Of a stretch of DNA of 64,000 nt, positions 7,048 through 25,313 are shown in pieces. Position numbers and translations under genes: made by a program. The stretch's first letter is position 1. Every line of letters begins with the position of its first letter. The DNA is from Thiohalomonas denitrificans (GTDB lineage Bacteria; Pseudomonadota; Gammaproteobacteria; Thiohalomonadales; Thiohalomonadaceae), in NCBI RefSeq assembly GCF_016841685.1, contig NZ_JAENYR010000006.1, positions 22,108 through 86,107 on the forward strand, written 5' to 3'. The notes beneath the pieces are model-generated. The model was not told the origin of the DNA, made no database searches, and saw nothing but the letters and a program-made list of their open reading frames with translations.

Positions 7048-7384
7048 GATTGCATTTGTTTCTGGTTAAAAAATGTGAGCGGAAATAGTACCGGTAAACT
7101 GCGAAAATTTCCCGGACTCACTGCCTGTATGTGGTCATTTTTTGACAGGCGCCTTCCAAATTCTGCACTCTTGCAGGGGAGCTTCGAAGCGCGCTTCCCT
7201 CCTCCCATCCCCATGGCGGGTCGGCATAGCCTTCCGCGATTAGCCTTCGTTGCCTGGATCAGCTAGCGGCAAGTGCCAATCACCCCTCATGATCAATGGG
7301 TTGCCGCGTCAGGATAAGTAACTCACAAGAACGCTTTCCGTACCGTACAGATTGTTGGCGCCTTTATTGCTTCCAGATTGATCC
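7048..7384. other. No gene seen
   Basis: Between the barrel gene and the inverted-repeat element no reading frame with a start signal or family resemblance was found. The promoter of the barrel gene is probably here but no clear -35/-10 pair stands out. Confidence 0.6.
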
Positions 7385-7633
7385 AGGAGCCTGTCCGAGA
7401 ATAGCGGCCGTCACAGGGCGAGACGGATTGAGTTAGATTTCGGTCATTTGAGGCGAATACGACTGCATGGATGCAGTCGTCAGAGCGACGCATGCCGCCA
7501 TGGATGGCGGTAGTAGAGAAGGTCTGGAACCTATTCTCGAGGATGCCCAAGCCGACGAGTGCAGGGAAGCACTCGGTAGAGCGAAGCAGGATGCCCGAGC
7601 CGAGTAGGTCGGCCTATTCGCGGACAGGCTCCT
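7385..7633. mobile_element. Inverted-repeat (MITE-like) element before the regulator gene
   Basis: The ends AGGAGCCTGTCCGAGAATAG and CTATTCGCGGACAGGCTCCT are inverted repeats with 19 of 20 bases matching, 249 bp apart. Inside are several short hairpins (GACTGCATGGATGCAGTC, GCCGCCATGGATGGCGG, GAGTGCAGGGAAGCACTC). No target duplication is obvious. There is no coding capacity. It lies about 110 bp upstream of the sigma-54 regulator start, so it may influence that gene's expression. Confidence 0.7.
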
Positions 7634-7742
7634 AGGCCAAGCCTGAAACAAACGAAAGTTGAACACACCGCCCACGCGAGAGGCAGCGCATGGTCTCATG
7701 CTCGGATCCCAGGTATCGAGCCAATTCATTGGAGGGGGCAGA

Positions 7743-9107
7743 GTGAGTAATATGAAACAGCGGATCCTGGTGATTGACGATAACATCGAACTGATCTATG
7801 CCCTGCGGCGTACTCTGGAGCAGGAGGGCTATCTTGTCAGCACCATCACCGAGCCCACAGCCAGCATTGAACCGGAAGTAGAGGCCACCGACCTGCTGAT
7901 TGTGGATATCAACCTGGGAAAGGCCTCAGGGCTGGACATGCTAATCTCCCTGCGAGAGCAGGGCTATGAACAACCCGTCATCATCATCACTGCACATGCC
8001 ACGCCCCACAACGTTATTACCGCCACCCGCCACGGTGCCATCGATGTACTGCAGAAGCCGTTCGAAGTGGAACAGCTGGTCGATGCGGTGAAACGTTCCT
8101 TTCCGTCCAGCGAAGGCAACAGCCTCAATCTGGCGGTGGATGGTCAGCCGGTAATCGGTACCTCAGCCAGCATGCTGAAAGTGTGCAAGACCGCCGGACT
8201 GGCCTCGTCGAACAACCTGAATGTTCTGTTAACCGGTGAAACCGGCGTCGGCAAAGAAGTGATCGCCAAGGCCATCCACCAGTATTCGGACCGGGCCAAG
8301 CAGCGCATGGTGGCCATCAACTGCAGCGCTATCCCCGAGTCCCTGCTGGAGGCAGAGCTTTTCGGGTATGCCCGTGGTGCCTTCACCGGCGCGGCGCGGG
8401 AGACACCGGGCAAGATCGAGGCGGCAGAAGGAGGCACCCTGTTTCTCGACGAAATCGGCGACATTCCGCCACCCTTTCAGGCTAAACTGCTGCGCTTTCT
8501 CGAGGACCAAACCTTCTACCGCCTCGGTGAGACACGCCTGAAGCAGGCCGATGTGCGGGTGGTCTGCGCGACCAATCGCAACCTGGACGAAATGGTGTTG
8601 AATGGCAGTTTCCGCGATGATCTCTATTTTCGCCTGTCGCAACTGACCATCGCTATTCCGCCGGTACGTGAGCGAAAAGAAGATATCAAACCGCTGATCG
8701 AGCTCTTCATCCACCAGGCCAATAGCGAACTGGGCTGCCGCGTACATCGCATCGATGCTGAAGTGCTCAAAGCCGCACAGGTTCACCACTGGCCGGGCAA
8801 CATCCGGGAGTTGAAGAACGTCGTATTTCGCGCTGCCCTCAGCGCCAGCAACGGCGTATTGAGCACCCTGCCCTACAACAGTGCCCAGCAGGCCAGTGCC
8901 AATGCCGGCATCAAGGAGTGCGTAGACCGCTATCTGGAAAAAGAGGGCACCGGGTCGGCAACGGAACTCGCACGGATCTTTGAAGCTGCCCTGCTGAGTG
9001 CCCTGGCCAGAGATCTCAACGGCAACAAGACCTACATGTGCGAAGCGCTCAACATCTCCCGCAATACCCTCAAGGTGCGCCTCAAGGAGCATGGTCTGGA
9101 TTTCTGA
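7743..9107 (+). CDS. Sigma-54-dependent response regulator, probable activator of the Mtr-type operon
   Basis: The GTG at 7743 follows GGAGGGGG by 5 bases; the ORF track begins 28 codons early and the ATG at 7752 is the alternative. The 454 residues comprise a receiver domain (1-120, phosphoacceptor Asp55 in IVDINLG), an AAA+ ATPase with Walker A GETGVGKE near 165, the sigma-54 contact loop GAFTGA near 212 and Walker B GGTLFLDEIGD, and a Fis-type helix-turn-helix at the end (NISRNTLKVRL). This is the AioR/NtrC class. It faces the cytochrome operon tail to tail, while the kinase and binding-protein genes lie on the operon's other side, so the three regulator genes probably form one signalling system split around its target. 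Confidence 0.92.
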   Translation: MSNMKQRILVIDDNIELIYALRRTLEQEGYLVSTITEPTASIEPEVEATDLLIVDINLGKASGLDMLISLREQGYEQPVIIITAHATPHNVITATRHGAIDVLQKPFEVEQLVDAVKRSFPSSEGNSLNLAVDGQPVIGTSASMLKVCKTAGLASSNNLNVLLTGETGVGKEVIAKAIHQYSDRAKQRMVAINCSAIPESLLEAELFGYARGAFTGAARETPGKIEAAEGGTLFLDEIGDIPPPFQAKLLRFLEDQTFYRLGETRLKQADVRVVCATNRNLDEMVLNGSFRDDLYFRLSQLTIAIPPVRERKEDIKPLIELFIHQANSELGCRVHRIDAEVLKAAQVHHWPGNIRELKNVVFRAALSASNGVLSTLPYNSAQQASANAGIKECVDRYLEKEGTGSATELARIFEAALLSALARDLNGNKTYMCEALNISRNTLKVRLKEHGLDF

Positions 9108-9426: not shown

Positions 9427-9451
9427 AAAAAAACCCGCCAGAGCGGCGGGT
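9427..9451 (-). terminator. Intrinsic terminator of the Mtr-type operon
   Basis: Read on the minus strand, ACCCGCC-GCTCT-GGCGGGT is followed directly by a run of seven T. It sits 84 bp past the stop of the last operon gene (9535). The plus-strand reading also has A/T flanks, so some bidirectional action on the convergent regulator is possible. Confidence 0.9.
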
Positions 9452-9534
9452 CAAAAATGGTACAGGGAGGATAATGAAATAATGATTGTAAGCTGCCGGA
9501 AGAGGGAGGGGACACCCTCCCTCTCACGCAGCCT

Positions 9535-11007
9535 TTAGTTTAGCTTGGCCTCGATATCGGCCCCGCTGCCTTCCATGCCCAGAGTGACGGGGAAGGTCAC
9601 GTGGTGCCAGCGATGGACGGTGTTTTCCTGATGGGCGGCGAATGCGAAGCTGTAGCTCTCTGCACCAGGATTCAAAACATGATCATCAGGGTTGCCAGTG
9701 TCGCGGGCACGTTCGAAGATCACGGTCCAGGTGCCGTCCTCCCATGCACTATAGGCATTGACGTCGGTTCGGCTGTTGTCTTGCGGCGTCAGTATGCGGC
9801 GCGGGATGATGTCGCCTTCGTTGACCTCTGCGGCATCGAACGCCACGGCATTCGCGTTGGGACCTTCGAGGACCAGTGTCGGGGCGTTTTGCTCCAGGGC
9901 CTCCCACAGATCGTCGGAGATGGCACTGACGTTCGTTTCACCCTCATAGTCCGGGGCGTGCTCCGCAATGAAGTCGGCCATCCAGGCAGGATCGTACATC
10001 CACTCCAGTTCGCCTGTAACTTCATCAGGGTCTTGCGTAGCGTAAAAATTGCTCCCGTCGTCGTTGGCTCGACTATCCATGACGTAACCATCGGTGACCG
10101 TGTTGATGATCGCCGAGCGGGCGCCGCGGAAGTGCCACATATCCGGGAAGCTGGCCGTAGTGCCGGCCAGTACATCAGCATTGCTCTCGCTGGAGGTGTC
10201 GTAGGTACCATTGGCGGACGTGCCACTCAGCAAGTACTTTGCGGTAGCCGGCTCATCCACAGGCCATTCGGGCATGTCGTCCATGTCTTCATGGCAAGTG
10301 GCGAAGCAGCCGGCTTCATGGAACGAGGCGCCCACGGAAACATCCTGGGACGCGGGCATGAACATGGCGGCAAAACGGTCCTCGGCACTGAAACGTTCGC
10401 CGGCCGCCTCATCGGGCTCATTTCCCGGCTCGTTGTAGACCGAGACCTTATTCCAGGCTGCGCCGTCGTACCTCCAGATGTCATGGGTGATACCGGGGCG
10501 CTCCGTCTCCCAGGAGGCCTTGAGATAGAAGTTATCCGCATCGTAGGCCGCCTGCACCGTAATGGGGACCGTTTCCTTCGACGGGGTCAGCTCCTCCTCG
10601 TCACGCTCGGCACCCACCTGCGAGGGGTTGTTGGCATTGGTATCATGACAATCACCACATGAACCAAATCCTGCAAATGCGCCGGCCCCTGTGTGGGTGT
10701 CGGAATCAGCCAGGTACTCGTAGCTCGCCTGCGCGGGACGAAAGGCGGTGATGGTTTCGACCTCACCCCAGGTCACGGTGGGGGCGCCCGCCATGAAGTC
10801 GACCTTGAAGCTGCTCTCGACAACCGGATCGTCAACCGGGTCGTCAACCGGATCCGCAATCGTGTCATCGGAACTCCCGGATGACAGACAGCCTGCGGTG
10901 AGGAATGTAGACGCGATCAGTGCGGCCAGCAGCGGCAGCCGCCGCTGAAAGTTGAAGGTTTCGGTTTCAGGCCCCTGTTCGTAGTCGGGTTTTTTATTGA
11001 CCATCAT
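9535..11007 (-). CDS. EB_dh-type heme lipoprotein with CX2CH and CX3CH sites
   Basis: The start is set at 11007, where GAGAGAGGACAAC precedes ATGATG; the track's extra 19 residues lack a ribosome site. The 490-residue protein has a lipobox (FLTAGC, Cys40), so it is a lipoprotein. An acidic linker with DDPVDDPV follows, then a heme c site CGDCH at 117-121. A large beta-sandwich then resembles the heme-binding gamma subunit of ethylbenzene/dimethylsulfide dehydrogenases (EB_dh family). A second Cys pair-His occurs as CFATCH at 234-239, an unusual CX3CH. As the last gene of the porin-cytochrome operon it may be the surface-exposed terminal carrier in place of MtrC/OmcA; that placement is inference from the lipid anchor and context. 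Confidence 0.82.
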   Translation of the reverse strand: MMVNKKPDYEQGPETETFNFQRRLPLLAALIASTFLTAGCLSSGSSDDTIADPVDDPVDDPVVESSFKVDFMAGAPTVTWGEVETITAFRPAQASYEYLADSDTHTGAGAFAGFGSCGDCHDTNANNPSQVGAERDEEELTPSKETVPITVQAAYDADNFYLKASWETERPGITHDIWRYDGAAWNKVSVYNEPGNEPDEAAGERFSAEDRFAAMFMPASQDVSVGASFHEAGCFATCHEDMDDMPEWPVDEPATAKYLLSGTSANGTYDTSSESNADVLAGTTASFPDMWHFRGARSAIINTVTDGYVMDSRANDDGSNFYATQDPDEVTGELEWMYDPAWMADFIAEHAPDYEGETNVSAISDDLWEALEQNAPTLVLEGPNANAVAFDAAEVNEGDIIPRRILTPQDNSRTDVNAYSAWEDGTWTVIFERARDTGNPDDHVLNPGAESYSFAFAAHQENTVHRWHHVTFPVTLGMEGSGADIEAKLN

Positions 11008-11081
11008 GTTGTCCTCTCTCTCCTCTGGATTCGTATGGCATCGGCGAAGAATCGCCTGTACCACTTCACTGCCCCTGGTCG

Positions 11082-13085
11082 TCAGAAACGATACGCAAGG
11101 GAAAGTCCGATCGACTGCGCCTGGTATTCGGTATCGTCCTGTCCCAGGGTGATGATGTTGCCTCCTGCGGTGACAATGTTTCCTGTGGTCGACCAGTCGT
11201 CCGAGTCGTAGTCCTCGAACCGGTAGCGCAAGCGCAGACCAAGCTCCCGGTTGACCTGGTAGCCGGCGTAAAGGTCGATACGCTTGACACGGGTGGTGAC
11301 GTCCGGAAGGCGTCCGTCGCTGTCCACATCCAACTCCGCCAGTGATTCGACCCAGCTGAAGTCACCGCCCAGTTCAAGCTGCTCGTTCATCCTCTGCGTC
11401 TTGCCCCCCACTCCCACGGCCAGCACCTGTTCACGACGGTCGCCGACCCAGGTCTCTCCGGCCTGTGTGCTGTCCGACTCTTCATAACTGACGAAACCGT
11501 GCAGACTGCTCAAGGCACTGATCGCCAGATAGCTGTCGAGGGAGGTGATGTGACGATCGGCCTCGGTCAGTCCCAGGTCGGATTCATCGTATCGATCGCG
11601 CAGCAGATCACTGGTCAGGCTCAGGCTCAGGATCTCGGTAGGAAAGTACTGGGCGAATACACCCCCACGAGTACGGTCCCGGTCTGCCCAGGCGTAGTTG
11701 CGCAATTCGTCAGGCCCCGTCTCCCGCGTGTAGGTGGAGCCGCGGCGGTTCTCCTGCCCCAGACTCAGACCACCCGACAGCCGTGGTCCGATACCGGTAC
11801 GAAGGCGCGCCCGCACGCTGTTTTCCTCGGAGCTCTCACTGTGGGCGGGATCACGCTCGGTGTCGGTATACCGGTAATCCAGATTGAGCCGGGTGGCTGA
11901 AGCCAGGCGGTAGTTGCCCCCCAGGTCGAAGCGGTGGCGGGTGTAGTTGTAGGAAGGGTCGATCACCAGGGTGTTATCGCGCACCACCTGGCCGGTATCG
12001 TTGTCGCGCCGATCCATCTGGTAGCCCGACGTCAGGCGCAGTTTGGCGGTTGGCCTGCCGGTAATCTGGAGCCCCAGGCTGGAGGTGTCCACTGCCGCAT
12101 CGAGGGAATCGCGCGACATTGCGGCAACGCCGACGAACCGCGCATCCTGCAGACTGCGTCCGACACTGGCACTGGCCGACAGATGGGTCTGTTCGCCGAG
12201 ACGGTGGTTACCCGAGGCGTACACCTCGTGATGCTCGTTGTCTGGCGCCCGGGCTTTCTCCTCCCCCTCACCTGCCCAGTCGACATCATGGGCATTATCC
12301 CAGCGCAGGACGTCGTACTCATTGTTGAACTGGACAGTACGGTAGCCGAACGCCAGGTGGCTGTCCTCGCCTCGCCAGGCTGCGGCGATGTCGTAGCGTT
12401 TGGTGGTCTCATCGACCGGCAACGGAGCGATAATCGACTCTCCCACCGCCCAGTGACTGCCCAGGCCGATGGTCCCGGTCCCTTCACGGGTTGTCTGGGA
12501 GAAGGAGCTTCGCAGGCTCCAGCTGGACGACAGATGAACCTCGCCCCCCAGTTCCGCCTGCTGCCGGTCCAGACCGATCTCCACCGGACGCAGATGCTCC
12601 TCGATGGTTGCCTGGCTACCCTCCTCCGGAAGGCGCAGATTACCGCCCGTCTCCCGAAACGGGGTCAGGGTATCATCGGCCTTGCGGGTGGGAATCTCCG
12701 TATAATCGAAGAAGATCCGGTAGCGGCCCTGCTCGCCATACTCGGTTTCCAGCTGACGGGAACGCAACCCGAGGTTGCGGGCTCGCAGTGACCAGTGGCG
12801 TGCGCGATCACTATCGTGAGGATCACGATGCCGCAGGTCGGCATCCAGGATGAGGTAGGCGCCGCTGTCGTCCAGGCCCGTGAAGTGACCAAAGCGGTAG
12901 GCATTGCCGTCCATCTCATCGACATAGCCAAGACCGACCTCAACCTCACTGCTGATTTCAGTCAGCTCGGCCCACTTTTCCTCGTCCCGCTCGACTGTCT
13001 CGCCGAGGTCCATATCAAATGCATGGGCCGTACCGGCACACAGGCCAGTGGCAATCATCGCCGCCATGAGTTTGTTGTATCGCAT
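11082..13085 (-). CDS. MtrB/PioB-family outer-membrane barrel for a decaheme cytochrome
   Basis: This 667-residue protein starts at an ATG preceded by GGAGG, with a signal peptide (1-22, THA-FD). The rest is a long series of alternating strands with acidic loops, such as WSLRARNLGLRSRQLETEY, RIFFDYTEIPTRK and LRLRYRFEDY, and it ends in LSLAYRF, the barrel C-terminal Phe. Length and strand count fit the 26-strand MtrB/PioB sheath that holds an MtrA/DmsE-type decaheme across the outer membrane. The N-terminal CXXC of Shewanella MtrB is absent. It sits directly after the decaheme gene with 25 bp between, as in mtrA-mtrB and pioA-pioB. Confidence 0.92.
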   Translation of the reverse strand: MRYNKLMAAMIATGLCAGTAHAFDMDLGETVERDEEKWAELTEISSEVEVGLGYVDEMDGNAYRFGHFTGLDDSGAYLILDADLRHRDPHDSDRARHWSLRARNLGLRSRQLETEYGEQGRYRIFFDYTEIPTRKADDTLTPFRETGGNLRLPEEGSQATIEEHLRPVEIGLDRQQAELGGEVHLSSSWSLRSSFSQTTREGTGTIGLGSHWAVGESIIAPLPVDETTKRYDIAAAWRGEDSHLAFGYRTVQFNNEYDVLRWDNAHDVDWAGEGEEKARAPDNEHHEVYASGNHRLGEQTHLSASASVGRSLQDARFVGVAAMSRDSLDAAVDTSSLGLQITGRPTAKLRLTSGYQMDRRDNDTGQVVRDNTLVIDPSYNYTRHRFDLGGNYRLASATRLNLDYRYTDTERDPAHSESSEENSVRARLRTGIGPRLSGGLSLGQENRRGSTYTRETGPDELRNYAWADRDRTRGGVFAQYFPTEILSLSLTSDLLRDRYDESDLGLTEADRHITSLDSYLAISALSSLHGFVSYEESDSTQAGETWVGDRREQVLAVGVGGKTQRMNEQLELGGDFSWVESLAELDVDSDGRLPDVTTRVKRIDLYAGYQVNRELGLRLRYRFEDYDSDDWSTTGNIVTAGGNIITLGQDDTEYQAQSIGLSLAYRF

Positions 13086-13110: not shown

Positions 13111-14016
13111 TCAGCGCGTCAGTCTCTGGCCCTGTGGATGATTGCTGCCATGTACCTGCACGTGGCAGTTCAGACAGTTCTTGCCGGCCATGAAGGGGGT
13201 ATCGAGACTGTCACCCCCAAAGGCGGCACTGGAATGAGTGCCGAGGTGGCACTGCTGGCAGAGCTGCGGTCCGCGTACTTTCAGCATGGGCTGATGGATC
13301 GAACCGTGTGGCTGATGGCAGGTGGTGCACTCCTCTGTCACCGGGGCGTGCTCCCACAGTACCGGGCCCCGTTTTTCCGCGTGACAGTCGTAGCAGGTCT
13401 CATTGACGTTGCTGCGACGCAGCAGCGATTCATTCAATGTGCCATGGGGATTGTGACAATCACTGCACGACATGGCCCCATCCTGCACAGGGTGTGCCGA
13501 TGGCCGAAGGGCCTCACTCTTCTGACGCGCATGGCAGCTGGTGCACACCTCGGTCTGCTTCCGCTCGTCGAGGATCGGGTCGCGAGGAACATGCACCGTG
13601 TGACAGGAGACGCAGGCCAACTCTTCGAAGTTATGCATACTCCCGCGCCAGTGCATCCGCGCCCCACTGTCATGACAGCCAAGGCAGGTCTCGTTCTGCT
13701 TCGCCACACTGGTGTGTTCCTCACCAAAGGTTACCGGCGGAGGTGTCCTTTCCTCGTCGTCGGCAGGCGCCTTCATGTGCTCGCCACCATCACCATGACA
13801 CCCCTCACAGGCATTGGGCGCGAAAGGGGTACGCTCGTCGGCCATGACGGCATGCGGCGTTTGCAGGATGTTCAGTACCGGAGACTCCCACGTCTCATCG
13901 TGACAACGGGTGCAGCTCTCCATGTCGCGCGCCAGCACGCCGCCTGCGGAGATCAGCAGGAGCAGTAAGGCCACGAGGAAAGCACTGCAAAGGGATCGCT
14001 GTCTGGTGGCGTTCAT
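13111..14016 (-). CDS. DmsE/MtrA-family decaheme cytochrome c
   Basis: The start is set at 14016 (AGAGGT ribosome site; 7 bases after the upstream stop); the track adds 15 residues in front. The 301-residue protein has a signal peptide (VLA-RD) and exactly ten CXXCH sites in regular spacing: CTRCH, CEGCH, CLGCH, CVSCH, CTSCH, CSDCH, CYDCH, CTTCH, CQQCH and CLNCH. This is the periplasmic/transmembrane electron wire of Mtr- and Dms-type systems; the size is close to MtrA (about 330). No DmsAB-type reductase genes accompany it, so a DMSO role is not supported by context. It probably threads the barrel encoded next and receives electrons from the tetraheme protein at 15044. Confidence 0.95.
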   Translation of the reverse strand: MNATRQRSLCSAFLVALLLLLISAGGVLARDMESCTRCHDETWESPVLNILQTPHAVMADERTPFAPNACEGCHGDGGEHMKAPADDEERTPPPVTFGEEHTSVAKQNETCLGCHDSGARMHWRGSMHNFEELACVSCHTVHVPRDPILDERKQTEVCTSCHARQKSEALRPSAHPVQDGAMSCSDCHNPHGTLNESLLRRSNVNETCYDCHAEKRGPVLWEHAPVTEECTTCHQPHGSIHQPMLKVRGPQLCQQCHLGTHSSAAFGGDSLDTPFMAGKNCLNCHVQVHGSNHPQGQRLTR

Positions 14017-14023
14017 GATTGGT

Positions 14024-15010
14024 CTACCTCTTGCTGGCCTGCAGATCAGCGTCGCCGCCATTCAGTGATACGCTGTGGTCCAGTGAGACGTAGTGAGCGC
14101 GGCCCGTTGCATGGCCATCGTGCAGGGCGAAACCCACCATCAGCTTTTTGGCCTCGCTGAGGGTTTTGTAACCGTCACCGGGTGCCGTCAGGTCACGGCT
14201 CAGTACAACTACCCAGCGATCCTCCTCCCGGCTGACGTCGACATCGACTTTGCTGTCAAACGTCTCGTGGCGTTCATCGAGGATGTAGCCATGCACGGAT
14301 TTGGCTTCGCCATCGACACCCACACGGGCCTGCCAGTACTCCATGAAGTGATTGCCGGCCAGCAGCTTGGCGATTTCGTCATCGGTCTTGACGTTGTCAC
14401 CGCCGCCGCTTCGCGACATCTTGTTGCGTGAGGCAGAAAGATACTTGACACGCTCTTCACCGTTGGCGCTCGCCATGCGGTTGGCGTCATCGTGACAGGT
14501 ACCCCAACAGCCGGCTCTGGTGGCCTCCCCGACACCACCGTTATCGAGCATCATGGTGACGCGCAGGGCATTGTCCTTGTCCATTGGCTCAACAGGCTTG
14601 TAACCGGTGTCCGGCCACGCGAGGCGCACATGGAGGCGTTCGCCGTCGTTGACCATCTTCACGTCCAGTTTCACACTGCCCGGCTTGCCATCAATCGGCG
14701 TCGGTTCAAGTTTCTCCCCGGCTACGATGAGCTTGCCGATATCCCCCTCTTCGCCTTTATGACAGTAGGAACAATTACGTCCCTGGCGGAAACGCTCGTT
14801 ACCGCTGTGATCGCTTTGTGTCAGTGCCCACTCCCAGGAGGCCTGCCCGGGGTAGAACAGTGTGACCTCGTTTCCTTCCACACCGTCCCAGTCAACGGCT
14901 TCGGCACTGACATACACCGGCGCCACGAGCAGGGCAGCGGCGAGCATTGCCGGCCGAAGCGTCAAAGGTGAATGCAAGGTTTCTTTCTTTGTAACTCGAT
15001 TTTTCAGCAT
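14024..15010 (-). CDS. Periplasmic EB_dh-type heme protein (CX2CH + CX3CH)
   Basis: The 328-residue protein starts at an ATG with AGGAGAAGACCC. It has a long signal peptide (about 1-36, VSA-EA) and no lipobox. CSYCH at 80-84 is a heme c site, and AGCWGTCHDD puts an unusual CX3CH at 168-173. The fold-typical stretches RLHVRLAWPDTG, LRVTMMLDNG, WVVVLSRDL and LMVGFALHDG match the EB_dh/cytochrome c-552 heme-binding domain, where WPD and the final FALHDG segments recur. It is a shorter paralogue of the lipoprotein at 9535, sharing both Cys motifs. Soluble periplasmic location and position between tetraheme and decaheme genes suggest it shuttles electrons or binds a redox-active ligand. Confidence 0.82.
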   Translation of the reverse strand: MLKNRVTKKETLHSPLTLRPAMLAAALLVAPVYVSAEAVDWDGVEGNEVTLFYPGQASWEWALTQSDHSGNERFRQGRNCSYCHKGEEGDIGKLIVAGEKLEPTPIDGKPGSVKLDVKMVNDGERLHVRLAWPDTGYKPVEPMDKDNALRVTMMLDNGGVGEATRAGCWGTCHDDANRMASANGEERVKYLSASRNKMSRSGGGDNVKTDDEIAKLLAGNHFMEYWQARVGVDGEAKSVHGYILDERHETFDSKVDVDVSREEDRWVVVLSRDLTAPGDGYKTLSEAKKLMVGFALHDGHATGRAHYVSLDHSVSLNGGDADLQASKR

Positions 15011-15043: not shown

Positions 15044-15649
15044 CTAGAATGCCAAGTCGAAATCTGCGTTTTCTGTTTCGTCAGACTCGGGCACAGGTTC
15101 TGTGTGCGTAATGCCCTTGTGGCAATCGATGCACGTCTCACCTTGTTCCTGCGCCTCCTGGTGCTGCCGGCGCGCGCGCAAGGCCTGAACCTCGTAATTC
15201 ATCGAACCCCAGGCATGGCAACTCCGACAGGTGGCGGAGTCAGACTGCTTCATGCTGTGCCATACCCGCTCCGCCATTTGCAGTCGTCTCTCTTTGAACT
15301 TTTCCTCGCTGTCTATCGTCCCCAGCATCTCGTGCCAAACGTCCTTGGCCGCCATAACCTTGGCGCGCATCTTTGGCCAGAAGGACTTGGGCACATGACA
15401 GTCCGGGCAACCTGCAGAGACACCACTGCGATTCTTGAGGTGACCGCTCGCGGTATATTCCTGATAGGGGACATCCTTCATGCTGTGACAGGAGATACAG
15501 AATTCCGTGGTGTTGGTTGAGTCCACGGCGACGGTAAAGGCAGAAGTAGCCAGTACGCCTGCCACCAGGCCCACCGCCACCAGCGTGCCAACGGCGAAGC
15601 GGCGGCTGGGTCTGCCAAGTTTTGAGATGAATGCCTTGATAAAGCCCAC
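15044..15649 (-). CDS. NapC/NirT-family tetraheme quinol-linked cytochrome c
   Basis: I choose the GTG at 15649 because GAGG lies 8 bases upstream and the product then begins MGFIKAFISKLGRPSRRF, the usual NapC/NirT head; the track's GTG at 15664 adds five residues. One membrane helix (about 18-38) anchors the 201-residue protein. Four heme sites follow: CISCH, CPDCH, CRSCH and CIDCH, in NirT-like spacing, with a C-terminal acidic tail. These proteins move electrons between the quinone pool and periplasmic multiheme partners, the role of CymA for Shewanella MtrCAB. As first gene of the operon it should link the membrane pool to the decaheme conduit. Confidence 0.93.
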   Translation of the reverse strand: MGFIKAFISKLGRPSRRFAVGTLVAVGLVAGVLATSAFTVAVDSTNTTEFCISCHSMKDVPYQEYTASGHLKNRSGVSAGCPDCHVPKSFWPKMRAKVMAAKDVWHEMLGTIDSEEKFKERRLQMAERVWHSMKQSDSATCRSCHAWGSMNYEVQALRARRQHQEAQEQGETCIDCHKGITHTEPVPESDETENADFDLAF

Positions 15650-15672: not shown

Positions 15673-15687
15673 GTTAGCGTCGCTAAC
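15673..15687. promoter_or_regulatory. 15-bp perfect palindrome at the start of the operon leader
   Basis: GTTAGCG-T-CGCTAAC lies 10-15 bases downstream of the -12 element and about 24 bases before the GTG of the tetraheme gene. It could be an operator for a second regulator at the transcription start, or a leader hairpin. No other copy was noticed in the window. Confidence 0.5.
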
Positions 15688-15696
15688 AGAGACCAT

Positions 15697-15712
15697 CGCA
15701 AGTTCCGGGCCA
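15697..15712 (-). promoter_or_regulatory. Sigma-54 promoter of the Mtr-type operon
   Basis: On the minus strand TGGCCCGGAACTTGCG gives GG and GC separated by exactly ten bases, matching the -24/-12 consensus TGGCAC-N5-TTGC at all but one position. It lies about 48 bp before the first operon gene. The flanking gene at 7743 encodes a sigma-54 activator, so sequence and context agree. Confidence 0.78.
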
Positions 15713-15808: not shown

Positions 15809-15823
15809 GGTCGGTTTTTGACC
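15809..15823. promoter_or_regulatory. Candidate activator-binding dyad upstream of the sigma-54 promoter
   Basis: GGTC-N7-GACC lies about 100 bp upstream of the -24 box, the usual distance for an enhancer site. A distal half-site GCGGTCAA (15776-15783) is inverted relative to TTGACCG (15818-15824). The sequence lies in the 228-bp gap between divergent genes and might serve both. This is a pattern call only. Confidence 0.35.
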
Positions 15824-15877: not shown

Positions 15878-16741
15878 ATGCGAATACTCATACGCTGCCT
15901 TGGCGCATGGCTCTTCTTGGTACTATCAACCACAGCGCCAGCCTTGCATCTATCGGACAACAGCGTACGTTTTGGTTTTACCGCGGTAGTATCGCGCTCG
16001 GACATCGACACTATCACTCAACTGCTGGGTTACATTTCCCAACGCCTGGACAGGGATATCTGGCCGGTGTTCACCAGCTCGCAGGATGAAATGAATCGCC
16101 TGGTCCTCAGTGGCGCAGTGGATTTGGCCTGGATTGACCCGGCGGGGTTTGCCACTGAAAGACCGATGCCGATTGTGGCGGTGCCCAGTCGAAAGGAAGG
16201 TCCGTTCTACTATTCCTATATTATCGTGCGCAGCGATCGTGACTTCACGGGGCTGGCTGACCTGCAAGGCAGGCCTTTTGCATTTTCAAACCTGCAATCA
16301 TTTTCCGGCGCACTGGCACCCTCCTATGAAATGGCACTCAACGGGCAGTTGGCAAACCGTTTTTTTCGCCCACTCATCTACACGGATGATCATGACAATA
16401 CCATCAAGGCGGTGACCGGTGGTTTCGTCGACGGAGGCAGCATCAGCAGTCTGGTATTCCATCAACTGGAGTCCAGGGCCAGCGGTCTATTGGAGAGACT
16501 TCGCGTCTTGAAACGGTTCGGTCCCTATCCTGCCCCACCCATTGTCGCCTCTCCCGGTCTTCAGAAAGATGTCCTCAGCGCGATGCGGCTTATCCTGCTA
16601 TCGATGCACGATGACGACGAAGGGCGCGCCATTCTGAATCGGCTCGCCATACGTCATTTCGAATCGGTCGATCGGGATCATTACACCTCGATAAAAGATA
16701 TCCTTGATACGTCAGCAGCCCATGAAAATAAAGCCAGGTAG
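15878..16741 (+). CDS. PhnD-like periplasmic binding protein of a sensor system (AioX-like)
   Basis: This 287-residue protein has a signal peptide (about 1-22, APA-LH) and a strong ribosome site GGAGAAAGGGGGG. It carries the PhnD/SsuA-type oxyanion-binding fold: VRFGFTAVVSR start, LVLSGAVDLAWIDPAGF in the first lobe, YYSYIIVRSDRDF and DLQGRPFAFSN at the hinge, and VTGGFVDGGSISSLVF in the second lobe. No ABC transporter genes accompany it; instead the kinase gene overlaps its end. That is the AioX/ArxX and TtrS-type arrangement, where a PhnD-like domain presents an oxyanion to the kinase. The mature protein has no cysteine, which argues against arsenite binding through the AioX thiol. Confidence 0.85.
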   Translation: MRILIRCLGAWLFLVLSTTAPALHLSDNSVRFGFTAVVSRSDIDTITQLLGYISQRLDRDIWPVFTSSQDEMNRLVLSGAVDLAWIDPAGFATERPMPIVAVPSRKEGPFYYSYIIVRSDRDFTGLADLQGRPFAFSNLQSFSGALAPSYEMALNGQLANRFFRPLIYTDDHDNTIKAVTGGFVDGGSISSLVFHQLESRASGLLERLRVLKRFGPYPAPPIVASPGLQKDVLSAMRLILLSMHDDDEGRAILNRLAIRHFESVDRDHYTSIKDILDTSAAHENKAR

Positions 16742-18449
16742 CTCCCGGTCCCTGCGGCTCGGGCATAAACTTATTCTCGTTATCGTGTTTGTCGTTGCCT
16801 TGTCATCCATGGCGACCACGGTGCTTTTTTTCATGTATGGCCAGGACGTTGTCAGAGAAAGCATCTGGACGGACATGAAGAAATTGCTGCTTAACAAGGA
16901 TGAGCAACTCCTCTCCCATGTCACTCGCCGGGACTACTGGTCGCTTTTTCGAATTGTGCAAGGTTTATCATCAAGTCACATTGTTGACTCGGCCTGGATC
17001 ATGGACAAGGACGGATACATGCTGGCGCACTCGGATCCCGGCACCTACCCCGTGCTGAGCAAATCCACGGAAGCGTTGCACGCGGATATCTCACACCAGA
17101 TAAGTGGCGTTTCCGGCTCCCTTGGAACCCTGTATATGGAAGTCAACGGTGCAGCCATCGCTTCGAGTTTGGCACCACTGAAAAAACTCGTTTACCTGGG
17201 CAATTTTCTCGTACTGACTATCAGCGTCGGGTTCGCCTGTTTTTTTTCACGCCATATCACCCGACGCTTTAATCGCATTTTTCATGAAGTTCAGAAGGCG
17301 GCACGTGGTCACCCCGGGGACGTGGATGAAGTGCGATTTTCGGAAAAAGACGAGATACAAACGCTGGCCAGTGAACTGAGACATGCCTTCCATGGCCTGG
17401 CCGACTCATTGGAAAACACGCGCTTTGCACAGGAGTTCTATAATTCCGTGTTGAGCACGGTACCGGATATCGTCCTGGTCGTGGAAGCCGATGGCACGAT
17501 CATCTACGCCAATGCACAGCACGAGCAACTGGGCTATCAACTTCATCAGTTGCTGGGTATCCGCTGGCAAAGCCTTTTCAAGCAGACACCAACGCTGCAG
17601 CCCCATGGGGACACCTCATCGGGATGGTTGACGGGTGAGGGCGTCATATTGGTGAATGGGAGAAAGTTTCCCGCCCTTATTACCCTCTCCACCCTATCCA
17701 GCTACGACATCGTTGCGATCCAGAACATCGAGACGGTAAAGGCGCTGGAGCGACAGATACACTACGCCAACACCTTCTCTGCGCTAGGGAAACTCAGTGC
17801 CAACTTCGCGCATGAGATCAAGAACACCATTTCACCGATACGACTGCTCTATCGCATCAATCATCACACTGAACAGGACATCGCCATCATGGAACAATCC
17901 ATCAAACAGGTTGATGCGTTGGTCACCAAATATCTCAACTTTGCACGTACCGATGCGGCCATATCGGACTTTTCAGTACGCATGGATCGCATCGCCATGG
18001 AGCTTCTCGCCCTGCACGACTGTCAGGTACAGGAAAAACAACTCACCATCAAGACACAACTCGAACCCGCCCCTCTGTACTACAACGAAGAGGCACTGCG
18101 CAGCATCATCAAGAACCTGCTGCTCAACGCGATCGATGCCTCACCACATGGCGCCTGTATCTGGCTGACACTGCATACGAGGGATGAGCAGGTAGTACTT
18201 ACCATGGCCGATATGGGAGAGGGGATCTCCGATGATGACAAAGAGCGGATCTTCGAGCCTTTTTTTACCACGAAGCCCAGCGGTTCGGGAATCGGACTGG
18301 CCACCGTCAATCATCATGTCCAATCCATGTCCGGGCACATGATCGTTCGGAACCGTCCCGATGGCGGTGCATTCTTTACCGTGATTTTGCCCAAAAATCG
18401 ACAGCACACATTCAACACGGAAAAACTGCAACCACTCCCCGAAAGCTGA
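16722..18449 (+). CDS. PAS-containing sensor histidine kinase, partner of the PhnD-like protein
   Basis: I use the ATG at 16722, inside the upstream gene's end; the track's TTG is six codons earlier. The 575 residues show a membrane segment (about 18-38), a periplasmic region of about 115 residues, a second segment near 155-178, HAMP, a PAS domain (FYNSVLSTVPDIVLVVEADG), and a dimerisation helix with the phosphorylated His near 364 (FAHEIKNTISPI). The ATPase domain has NLLLNAIDAS, GEGISDDD and GSGIGLATV. HEIKN-type kinases normally pair with NtrC-class regulators, so the regulator at 7743 is the obvious partner although it lies beyond the operon. The small periplasmic region could dock the PhnD-like protein. 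Confidence 0.9.
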   Translation: MKIKPGSSRSLRLGHKLILVIVFVVALSSMATTVLFFMYGQDVVRESIWTDMKKLLLNKDEQLLSHVTRRDYWSLFRIVQGLSSSHIVDSAWIMDKDGYMLAHSDPGTYPVLSKSTEALHADISHQISGVSGSLGTLYMEVNGAAIASSLAPLKKLVYLGNFLVLTISVGFACFFSRHITRRFNRIFHEVQKAARGHPGDVDEVRFSEKDEIQTLASELRHAFHGLADSLENTRFAQEFYNSVLSTVPDIVLVVEADGTIIYANAQHEQLGYQLHQLLGIRWQSLFKQTPTLQPHGDTSSGWLTGEGVILVNGRKFPALITLSTLSSYDIVAIQNIETVKALERQIHYANTFSALGKLSANFAHEIKNTISPIRLLYRINHHTEQDIAIMEQSIKQVDALVTKYLNFARTDAAISDFSVRMDRIAMELLALHDCQVQEKQLTIKTQLEPAPLYYNEEALRSIIKNLLLNAIDASPHGACIWLTLHTRDEQVVLTMADMGEGISDDDKERIFEPFFTTKPSGSGIGLATVNHHVQSMSGHMIVRNRPDGGAFFTVILPKNRQHTFNTEKLQPLPES

Positions 18450-22302: not shown

Positions 22303-23673
22303 TCAAGACTCATCCGCATTAATCCCGTGACGCTTGATCTTGCGCCACAGGGAAACCCTATCGATTCCGAGGATCCGGGCGGCCTGGGTCCGATTGCCAA
22401 CGGTTTTTTCAAGCACCAGTCGGATGTACTGTGCTTCCCGCTCCTCCAGGGTCAGAGGGGGAGCCGAAGGCGTCCGGAAAAAAGCGGCATGGGTTTCCCG
22501 CAGGTTCCCCGGCAGGTGGTCCGCCCTCAGTTCGTCGCCGTTGGTCATGGCAACGCCAAATTCGATCGCATTTTCAAGCTCCCGAATGTTACCGGGATAG
22601 CCGTAACCGGTCAGTAAGGTCATCGCCTCCGGCGTAATGTCTCGCACGGATTTTTCGGCGATCGCGGCATGTTTTTTGAGAAAGTGGTAAGCCAACAGCG
22701 GCACATCACCGGAACGATGCGCCAGCGCCGGCAACTGCAACCGGACCACATTCAACCGGTAATACAGATCCTGGCGAAAGCTGCCTTCTGCCACGGCCGC
22801 CTCCAGATCGCGGTTGGTGGCCGCAATGTAACGAACATCGGTCTTGATCGGGCGAACCCCACCCAGGCGAAGCAGTTCCCGCTCCTGGATCACCCGCAAC
22901 AGCTTCACCTGCATCGAGGGGGTCATCTCGGCAATTTCATCCAGCAACAGGGTACCGCCCTCGGCCGTCTCGATCAGACCCCGCTTGACCGTGTCCGCTC
23001 CGGTAAACGCCCCCTTCTCGTGACCGAACAGTTCGTTCGCCAGCAACTCCTCCTGAAAAGCGCCGCAGTTGACCGCCACAAACGGTGCTTCGACACGGGG
23101 ACTGTGGGCGTGCAAGTAGCGCGCCAGCAATTCCTTGCCGGTCCCGCTTTCGCCGGTAACCAGGACGCTGCAGCCGCTGTCTGCGATCTGGTGGGCGGTC
23201 TCAAGCACCCTTAGCACCGCCTGGTCCTGGGTAATGAATTTGACCTGGCCCTGGTAGCTGTCCACCTGCCGCCGCAAGTTCCTGTTCTCATGCCGCAGAC
23301 GCACCATTTCGACAGCGCCCCGGACCACTTCCCGGACCTCGTCCAGGCGGAAGGGCTTGGCGATGTAATGAAAGGCGCCCTCACGCAGCGCAGTGACCGC
23401 AGAGCTGAGCGTGGCATATCCGGTGATGACGATCACCGCGCTGTCGGGGTGGAGTTCCCTGCAGCGGTGCAGAATCTCCATTCCATCCACCTCCTCCATT
23501 CGCAGATCCGTCAACACGATGTCAAAGGGCCGTTCCTCTATCGCCCGAAGTCCACCCGGTCCGCTCTGCCGGGTGGTAATCGCGTAGCCCGCCTTCTTGA
23601 AGACGTGGGCGAGATTCTTCACCGCAATCGGTTCGTCGTCGATAATCAACAGAGAGATATCGGACTGATTCAT
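22303..23673 (-). CDS. NtrC-family sigma-54 response regulator for the salt/stress operon
   Basis: The ATG at 23673 overlaps the kinase stop as ATGA; the track's start 14 codons earlier lies inside the kinase gene. The 456 residues consist of a receiver domain with Asp56 (VLTDLRM), an AAA+ domain with GESGTGKE, the GAFTGA loop, GGTLLLDEIAE and the R-finger region, and a C-terminal Fis-type helix-turn-helix (RTQAARILGIDRVSLWRKI). It is paired with the membrane kinase encoded just upstream. The divergent operon has a sigma-54 promoter and two identical-type palindromes, so it is the likely target. Confidence 0.94.
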   Translation of the reverse strand: MNQSDISLLIIDDEPIAVKNLAHVFKKAGYAITTRQSGPGGLRAIEERPFDIVLTDLRMEEVDGMEILHRCRELHPDSAVIVITGYATLSSAVTALREGAFHYIAKPFRLDEVREVVRGAVEMVRLRHENRNLRRQVDSYQGQVKFITQDQAVLRVLETAHQIADSGCSVLVTGESGTGKELLARYLHAHSPRVEAPFVAVNCGAFQEELLANELFGHEKGAFTGADTVKRGLIETAEGGTLLLDEIAEMTPSMQVKLLRVIQERELLRLGGVRPIKTDVRYIAATNRDLEAAVAEGSFRQDLYYRLNVVRLQLPALAHRSGDVPLLAYHFLKKHAAIAEKSVRDITPEAMTLLTGYGYPGNIRELENAIEFGVAMTNGDELRADHLPGNLRETHAAFFRTPSAPPLTLEEREAQYIRLVLEKTVGNRTQAARILGIDRVSLWRKIKRHGINADES

Positions 23674-25124
23674 CGGTTGGATTCCACTGCCGGTAATCGG
23701 ATACTGAAGGTGCAACCCACTCCTTCTCGGCTACGTATCGCTATGCAGCCGTCGTGTTCACGGATAATTTCCTCGACGATGTAAAGCCCGAGCCCCATGC
23801 CGTGGCCCGTCTCCCGGGTGGTAAAGAAGGGGTCAAAGACCTTCGGAAGAATCGCCGCCTCGATACCGGGTCCATCGTCCTCGACCCGGATGATTGCCAC
23901 CTTTTCGTCACCGCCGGGGCAGAGATCATTGCCGAAGACATACGCATCCTCTGCCGGAGCCGCCTCCCGCCCGGTGCGATACTCGGCACGGACACGCACC
24001 CGGGTGCCGGGACCTCCGGCGTCGGTGGCGTTCTTGATCAGGTTAATGAAGACCTGCTGCATGCGCTGCGAATCGACCCGAATCAGGAACTCTGGCGGGA
24101 CGTCCGTATCCACCACCACATTCTTCAACTCCTTATGCAGCAGCAGCAGGACCTTCTCCAGTAGCGGCGACAGCAGCACCGGCTCCGTCGCAAACGGGCG
24201 ATTTCGGGAGAAATCGAGCAGCGCGAGCACTATGCCGCGCGCCCGTTGTGTCTGCTCGTCGATCTGCTCCAGCCACTCCTGCATCAGCTCCCGGTCGCCG
24301 TCCTTTTGCTCTTCCAGCAACAACTGGCAGGAAGAGGAGATATTCGAGAGCGGGTTGTTCAGTTCATGCGCCACCCCCGAGACCAATACCCCCAACGAGG
24401 CGAGCTTCTCGGAGTGCAACAGTTGACGCCGTCGCGCCTCCAGTTCTCCCAGCATGCGGTTGAAGGCCCGGGTAAAAGAGACGATCTCGCGATCATCCGA
24501 GTGGGCGGTGAGGGCCCGGAAACGGCCCCGGGCGATCGGCTCCAGATTCGACTCCAACTGGCGTAGCGACCGGACTACCGCCTGCGACAGCAGCCGTCCG
24601 ATCAGGACCCCGACCGCCCCCACCACCAGAACCGAGATCACCACAGCGATGCGTGAGTTGCGCAGGTATTGCAGCACCGTCGCACGTTCGCGCTCCGAGA
24701 TGACGTCGGCGGCAATGGAAATGTCCCGCCCCACCTCACGAATGGGCGGTACCGGCTGACCATCCCGATTGTCGGAATAGATCTCGAGCAGGGCCCGGTA
24801 GCGTTCCAGGCGACGATCCAGCGTCACCAGCTCCTCCTGCGGTGCGAGCCCGGCAAACAGCTCGTCGTGGGTCACCAGGATCTCGCCGGCAGCCCCGTTG
24901 TGCTCGAACGCGGCCGAAAGGTCATCATTGCTGTGGTAGAGCAGATAGTTTTTCTCGAAACGCCGCATCTCCAATACGTGTTCGCTGAAGCGCGACACGG
25001 CTACCCCACTCTCCACCTGGTCTTCAAGGAAACGCAGGTCGAGATAGACCACGGCGGAGAGCGCCGCTACTACCGTAGCGAGGGCATAGGAACCCAGACG
25101 AATCTTGCCTTGCAGGCTGGCCAT
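23670..25124 (-). CDS. NtrB-like membrane sensor histidine kinase
   Basis: I prefer the ATG at 25124 (MASLQGKIRLGSYAL); the track's start at 25172 would run through a regulatory palindrome. No start has a good ribosome site. The 484 residues include a membrane helix at about 8-28, a helical periplasmic domain of about 140 residues with the LEMRRFEKNYLLY pattern of four-helix-bundle sensors, a second helix near 168-190, HAMP, a dimerisation helix with His near 253 (GVAHELNNPLSNI), and an ATPase domain (NLIKNATDAG, EDDGPGIEA, GHGMGLGLYIV). The HELNNPL form is typical of kinases for sigma-54 regulators. The signal may be salt, pH or membrane stress. Confidence 0.9.
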   Translation of the reverse strand: MASLQGKIRLGSYALATVVAALSAVVYLDLRFLEDQVESGVAVSRFSEHVLEMRRFEKNYLLYHSNDDLSAAFEHNGAAGEILVTHDELFAGLAPQEELVTLDRRLERYRALLEIYSDNRDGQPVPPIREVGRDISIAADVISERERATVLQYLRNSRIAVVISVLVVGAVGVLIGRLLSQAVVRSLRQLESNLEPIARGRFRALTAHSDDREIVSFTRAFNRMLGELEARRRQLLHSEKLASLGVLVSGVAHELNNPLSNISSSCQLLLEEQKDGDRELMQEWLEQIDEQTQRARGIVLALLDFSRNRPFATEPVLLSPLLEKVLLLLHKELKNVVVDTDVPPEFLIRVDSQRMQQVFINLIKNATDAGGPGTRVRVRAEYRTGREAAPAEDAYVFGNDLCPGGDEKVAIIRVEDDGPGIEAAILPKVFDPFFTTRETGHGMGLGLYIVEEIIREHDGCIAIRSREGVGCTFSIRLPAVESNR

Positions 25125-25147
25125 ATACGTTTCAGTGTGAAACAGGG

Positions 25148-25164
25148 TGTTGCTATTTGTAACA
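25148..25164. promoter_or_regulatory. Activator site 1 (TGTTGC-N5-GTAACA)
   Basis: TGTTGCTATTTGTAACA is a 17-bp dyad with the same half-site and spacing as the perfect palindrome at 25219. It lies about 134 bp upstream of the -24 box of the Usp/NhaD operon and just ahead of the kinase gene, so it may also serve autoregulation. Confidence 0.75.
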
Positions 25165-25218
25165 CCCACCATTTATCCAAGGCAAGTGGGGCGTGATGCA
25201 GCCAATGCTTCCTACAGC

Positions 25219-25297: not shown

Positions 25298-25313
25298 TGG
25301 CACGAGGAGTGCA
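25298..25313 (+). promoter_or_regulatory. Sigma-54 promoter of the Usp-SLC13-NhaD-Usp operon
   Basis: TGGCACGAGGAGTGCA matches the -24 consensus TGGCACG completely and the -12 TTGCA at four of five bases, with GG-N10-GC spacing. Predicted transcription would start about 20 bases before the ATG at 25346. The longer ORF from 25193 would have to cross this promoter, which is why the later start is chosen. Confidence 0.88.

Follow-up and report, generated by a model that had tools for sequence, protein, structure and literature searches.

The DNA examined here, a window of 64,000 nucleotides, appears to encode a variant XSR-type circuit that controls an Mtr-type outer-membrane electron conduit. 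In our reading, which we hold to be probable, the sigma-54 promoter of a five-gene cytochrome operon is activated by an XSR-like system made up of a periplasmic binding protein (X), a sensor kinase (S) and an NtrC-type response regulator (R), the latter acting from upstream. The elements behind this reading can be seen directly in the DNA, namely the -24/-12 site and its conservation, the genes themselves, rpoN, the GAFTGA motif of R, and the X-divergent sigma-54 sites found again at other loci (Table 1 and below).

The circuit would work as follows. The -24/-12 site on the minus strand would serve as the sigma-54 promoter of the NapC-EB_dh-MtrA-MtrB-EB_dh operon, which would end at the intrinsic terminator. 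X would bind its ligand in the periplasm and engage the kinase S, which would phosphorylate R, and R, from upstream and possibly on a GGTC-N7-GACC dyad, would then stimulate promoter opening by the RpoN-RNA polymerase. The gene of R itself is probably also under R's control, through a second -24/-12 site. Within this scheme, we infer the pairing of X with S and R, the binding of R at the dyad, the transcription start site and the dependence on RpoN.

Table 1. Features of the conduit locus, with positions in the window
Feature	Position	Strand	Remarks
GGTCATTTTTTGACA, dyad-like sequence upstream of R's sigma-54 site	7133..7147	.	Shares 12 of 15 bases with the operon dyad
Second -24/-12 site, TTGGCGCCTTTATTGCT, ahead of R	7355..7371	+	Perfectly conserved in congener G001
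R, NtrC-type response regulator (receiver, AAA+ with GAFTGA, Fis HTH)	7743..9107	+	Start GTG 7743 or ATG 7752
Intrinsic terminator closing the operon	9432..9452	-	
EB_dh-domain protein, lipobox-like N-terminus, putative outer-membrane lipoprotein	9535..11064	-	Start probably 11007
MtrB/PioB outer-membrane porin	11082..13085	-	PF11854, TIGR03509
MtrA/DmsE-family decaheme cytochrome, 10 CXXCH	13111..14061	-	Start may be 14016
EB_dh-domain cytochrome (ethylbenzene dehydrogenase gamma-like), c-type haem motif	14024..15010	-	PF09459
NapC/NirT-type membrane tetraheme cytochrome (quinol dehydrogenase type), first gene	15044..15649	-	PF03264
Perfect 7-1-7 palindrome GTTAGCG-T-CGCTAAC	15673..15687	.	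At the predicted transcription start
Predicted -24/-12 (sigma-54) promoter of the cytochrome operon	15697..15712	-	TGGCCCGGAACTTGCG, GG-N10-GC spacing
GGTC-N7-GACC dyad, candidate upstream activator site for R	15809..15823	.	
X, AioX/ArrX-like periplasmic binding protein, altered pocket	15878..16741	+	
S, AtoS/NtrB-type sensor histidine kinase	16722..18449	+	Overlaps X

The conduit operon

The combination of a NapC/NirT cytochrome, an EB_dh-domain cytochrome, an MtrA/DmsE decaheme, an MtrB/PioB porin and an EB_dh-domain protein with a lipobox-like N-terminus points to an outer-membrane electron conduit. Both the decaheme (293 bits against TIGR03508, cut-off 192) and the porin (370 bits against TIGR03509, cut-off 240) score well above the thresholds of their families. 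In the first EB_dh-domain protein there is a single CXXCH, along with an unusual motif, CXXXCH (CWGTCH). Among the five operon proteins there is no MtrC/OmcA-type surface cytochrome, and the EB_dh lipoprotein candidate might occupy the place of such a protein. The five also include no molybdoenzyme, unlike the comparison loci L104, L105 and L108. The order R - operon - X-S is retained in a second genome of the genus (G001), where the proteins are 91-98% identical, except for the second EB_dh-domain protein (EB_dh2, 68%). Paralogues of NirT and EB_dh follow a nirS-like gene in several genomes of the family (L063, L064), this genome included, the nirS naming at those loci being based on C-terminal residues only.

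The probable promoter of the conduit operon

An earlier note on this stretch had described a -24/-12 site with GG-N10-GC spacing on the correct strand, 48 bp before the first gene, together with a GTTAGCG-T-CGCTAAC palindrome at the predicted start and a GGTC-N7-GACC dyad about 100 bp further upstream. All three elements are present, the dyad lying about 98 bp from the -24 element. Read from 15712 to 15697 on the minus strand, TGGCCCGGAACTTGCG matches 10 of the 11 specified bases of TGGCACG-N4-TTGC, and the GTG start at 15649, 48 bp downstream, is accompanied by a GAGGA ribosome-binding site.

With up to two mismatches, TGGCACG-N4-TTGC was seen 24 times in the window, against 24.9 expected, and the six copies of TGGCMCGN4TTGC in the 3.79 Mb genome are close to the number predicted from composition (about 6.6). 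Because these frequencies are at chance level, the motif alone proves nothing, the genome-wide count was dropped as support for the promoter, and the case has to be carried by position, conservation and context.

With regard to position, only 0.4% of shuffles of the 500 bp in front of the divergent gene X contained a site as good as TGGCCCGGAACTTGCG (P = 0.004). With regard to conservation, all 16 bases of the site are identical in the congener G001, and in the alignment only one base differs between the -24 element and the end of the palindrome, with clusters of substitutions flanking this segment on both sides. Given a background identity of ~88% (0.88^16 about 0.13), however, conservation of 16/16 bases at this site is by itself weak evidence and could be due to chance. 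With regard to context, rpoN is present in the genome, and a consensus scan of the intergenic region upstream of the operon detected no sigma-70-like promoter. No FNR-like site was detected upstream of this operon either. Taken with the recurrent sites described below, the sequence in front of the operon is very probably a genuine sigma-54 promoter.

Sigma-54 sites at other X loci and at relatives of the operon

For comparison, we collected 18 other gammaproteobacterial loci encoding X homologues, 13 of which also encode a sigma-54 regulator, and searched the 500 bp upstream of X for a -24/-12 site in the divergent orientation with P < 0.01. An X-divergent site was found in seven of the 13 loci with X and regulator (L104, L105, L107, L108, L109, L110 and L112), mostly in front of cytochrome, iron-sulphur or molybdoenzyme genes, and in none of the four X loci without a sigma-54 regulator (L116, L119, L120 and L121). 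At one further locus, L113, which is truncated by the contig edge, the X-divergent site has P = 0.04.

The gene content of some of these loci is worth describing. In L108, L109 and L110, the XSR module is divergent from a gene for a ten-haem NapC-like cytochrome, each with a good -24/-12 site, and in L108 there is a molybdoenzyme gene downstream. In L107 and L113, which belong to another genus, an EB_dh gene runs divergently from the XSR module, and a -24/-12 site lies between the two; in L107, NapC, iron-sulphur, NrfD and molybdopterin genes come after the EB_dh gene.

The distantly related conduit operons (L002-L008, L060-L068) have no X or R nearby and no comparable -24/-12 site, and were for this reason used as a contrast and not as footprints. 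In three of them FNR-like boxes lie upstream of the NapC gene, two perfect TTGATN4ATCAA copies in L003 and copies with one mismatch in L002 and L004. This genus seems to have rewired the control of its conduit.

These data also bear on the possibility that the -24/-12 match in front of our operon is fortuitous and that transcription depends instead on a sigma-70-type promoter, perhaps with a repressor at the palindrome, or on an FNR-type activator. The chance-level motif counts, the perfect palindrome at +1, unique in the genome, and the FNR boxes ahead of the relatives' operons are all compatible with it, but neither a sigma-70-like nor an FNR-like site was found upstream here, a sigma-54 regulator system adjoins the site, X-divergent sigma-54 sites recur in distant loci, and a second, strongly conserved -24/-12 site stands ahead of R, so that we consider this explanation very unlikely. 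The promoter function that the earlier note had assigned to the site is the best reading of the region, with rpoN, the GAFTGA-containing regulator and the XSR loci in its support.

The regulator R

R is a complete sigma-54-dependent response regulator, in which both the GAFTGA motif and the receiver Asp are present. In front of its gene, TTGGCGCCTTTATTGCT belongs to a stretch of over 20 bp that does not vary between the two congeners, in an intergenic region whose sequence has otherwise strongly diverged, and when the 86-kb contig was compared with G001 the only fully conserved -24/-12 sites scoring at least 14.9 were that of the operon and that of R. Of the two, R's site provides the stronger evidence from conservation. 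Directly past the predicted start of R's sigma-54 transcript there is a MITE-like element (7384-7637), absent from this position in the congener, with inverted terminal repeats GGAGCCTGTCCG(A/C)GAATAG and 61 matches in the genome, as copies or as fragments.

In the regulator tree, R fell outside the XSR clade, with a single common clade not being rejected (p-AU 0.41). Since the genome encodes 12 strong sigma-54 activator domains, 11 of them besides R, we considered whether the promoter could be real and be activated by another NtrC-type regulator, for example the one encoded at 22303-23715, 7 kb from the promoter. That regulator adjoins a kinase of its own (23670-25172) and a conserved -24/-12 candidate of its own at 25298 on the plus strand, whereas R and X-S bracket the operon both in this genome and in G001, and R has its own conserved -24/-12 site; activation by a regulator other than R is therefore an unlikely alternative in our view. 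The site near the second regulator is a third good -24/-12 site (TGGCACGAGGAGTGCA, 25298-25313, plus strand, 15 of 16 bases identical in the congener), which is divergent from the regulator/kinase pair (22303-25172, minus strand) and precedes a small gene and a gene for a CitMHS-type transporter.

The tie between the operon and the activator encoded beyond its other end, which the earlier note had drawn from the promoter, is probably right, and we infer it from the synteny in the congener and from the XSR architecture.

The upstream dyad and the palindrome

Within the window, an exact copy of GGTC-N7-GACC occurs only at the dyad upstream of the operon, and a related sequence lies upstream of R's sigma-54 site. 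The two (GGTCAAAAACCGACC at the operon and TGTCAAAAAATGACC upstream of R) have 12 of 15 bases in common, a likeness reached by about 1% of shuffled regions. Exact matches to GTCAAAAANNGACC in the genome are limited to these two dyads, from which the pattern itself was derived. In G001, R's copy of the dyad is degraded, and an ungapped comparison of the upstream regions of the operon and of R for a common activator site performed no better than shuffles. As a binding site for R, the dyad is only suggestive on these sequence comparisons.

The dyad might instead serve the divergent X-S genes, for instance as an operator by their promoter, and not the cytochrome operon. Its distance of 55 bp from the X start codon fits this idea, as does its location upstream of a possible TTGCCG-16-TGTATAAC promoter, which is visible in the sequence and was missed by the sigma-70 consensus scan. 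Yet a similar dyad lies upstream of R's sigma-54 site, where no X gene is present, and one common dyad could serve X-S and the operon alike. We regard an exclusive role at X-S as possible, with somewhat greater weight against it than for it; it competes with the enhancer step alone, and the operon promoter could be real all the same. In the reading that we prefer, R acts from upstream of that promoter, possibly through this dyad.

A transcript from the predicted sigma-54 promoter would start about 12 nt past the GC, and this predicted start of the operon falls at the palindrome. GTTAGCG-T-CGCTAAC has its sole perfect copy in the whole genome at this position and is unchanged in G001. As RNA it would form a 6-bp stem, and the stability of the 5' hairpin is not exceptional (z about 0). 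The palindrome is a candidate operator or 5' hairpin.

The sensor X and the kinase S

The earlier note missed the sensor, which is an AioX-like protein with a rebuilt pocket. Among solved structures, X is closest to AioX (E 2.8e-36) and ArrX (4.5e-32), with PtxB further away (9e-11), and in the X tree it sits on a long branch. Four pocket residues are changed (C106->D, Y88->Q, N162->F and D210->S), with the same letters in G001, and Cys106, Tyr88, Asn162 and Asp210 are canonical in all 18 other homologues fetched. AioX binds arsenite through Cys106; because this arsenite-ligating residue is gone from X, the sequence indicates that its ligand is probably something other than arsenite. A TtrS-like fused sensor was considered for X and rejected, given that there was no match to the TtrS model. 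For S, no orthologue was detected at 1e-60 in 369 genomes of the class. The same genome carries another X-S-R module, in which the pocket is of the canonical arsenic type (L118, G000:C107).

We tentatively propose, with a confidence somewhat short of even, that X with its rebuilt pocket senses a ligand other than arsenite and induces the outer-membrane conduit via a dedicated sigma-54 regulator. If this is true, the locus would place Mtr-type extracellular electron transfer under a ligand-gated switch, and in the literature searched no such switch paired with an Mtr-type conduit was found. In most bacteria, the signals that induce Mtr-type conduits are not well characterized. General anaerobic (FNR-type) control appears to operate at some relatives of the present operon, whereas here X, S and R bracket the conduit. 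The ligand of X, once found, would tell the purpose of the conduit, the promoter being a ready readout. The circuit would also show that XSR modules, known from arsenic metabolism, have been put to use in another respiratory process once the pocket had changed.

Comparison with known systems

With the Mtr, Mto, Pio and Dms conduits the operon has in common an MtrA/DmsE-family decaheme, an MtrB/PioB porin and a NapC-type inner-membrane cytochrome, and it differs from them in having two EB_dh-domain proteins, one of them lipobox-like, in place of an MtrC/OmcA-type surface decaheme. Sigma-54 is known to influence the cytochromes of extracellular electron transfer in Geobacter sulfurreducens, with the consensus TTGGCACGGTTTTTGCT (PMC2725144). 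That case is one of a global RpoN regulon, whereas here a dedicated local circuit of sensor, kinase and regulator is predicted.

Sensing of a ligand by a protein of the PhnD superfamily also controls respiratory operons in TtrSR and ThsSR (PMC5408782). In those systems, however, the PhnD-like sensor domain is fused to the kinase (PMC5408782), whereas here the binding protein is separate, the kinase is AtoS/NtrB-like and the regulator is of the NtrC type.

In architecture, the locus resembles the AioXSR and ArxXSR systems, which regulate arsenite oxidase operons. AioX works with AioS and the RpoN-dependent AioR, which binds upstream of the RpoN promoter, and the aioBA promoter of Rhizobium NT-26 reads TGGCACAACGATTGCA (PMC5908839, PMC6011840). 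An AioX-like protein, a histidine kinase, an AAA+ regulator of the NtrC/AtoC type and an RpoN promoter, predicted in our case, before a respiratory operon are common to these systems and to our locus, and with X, S and R components and the AioXSR precedent the window has the logic of an XSR module. It departs from AioXSR and ArxXSR in that X, S and R are not contiguous, R being located past the far end of the operon with its own -24/-12 site, in that the target lacks an arsenic molybdoenzyme, and in that X lacks Cys106, Tyr88, Asn162 and Asp210. We describe the system as one that works like XSR, and do not file it as a member of that group.
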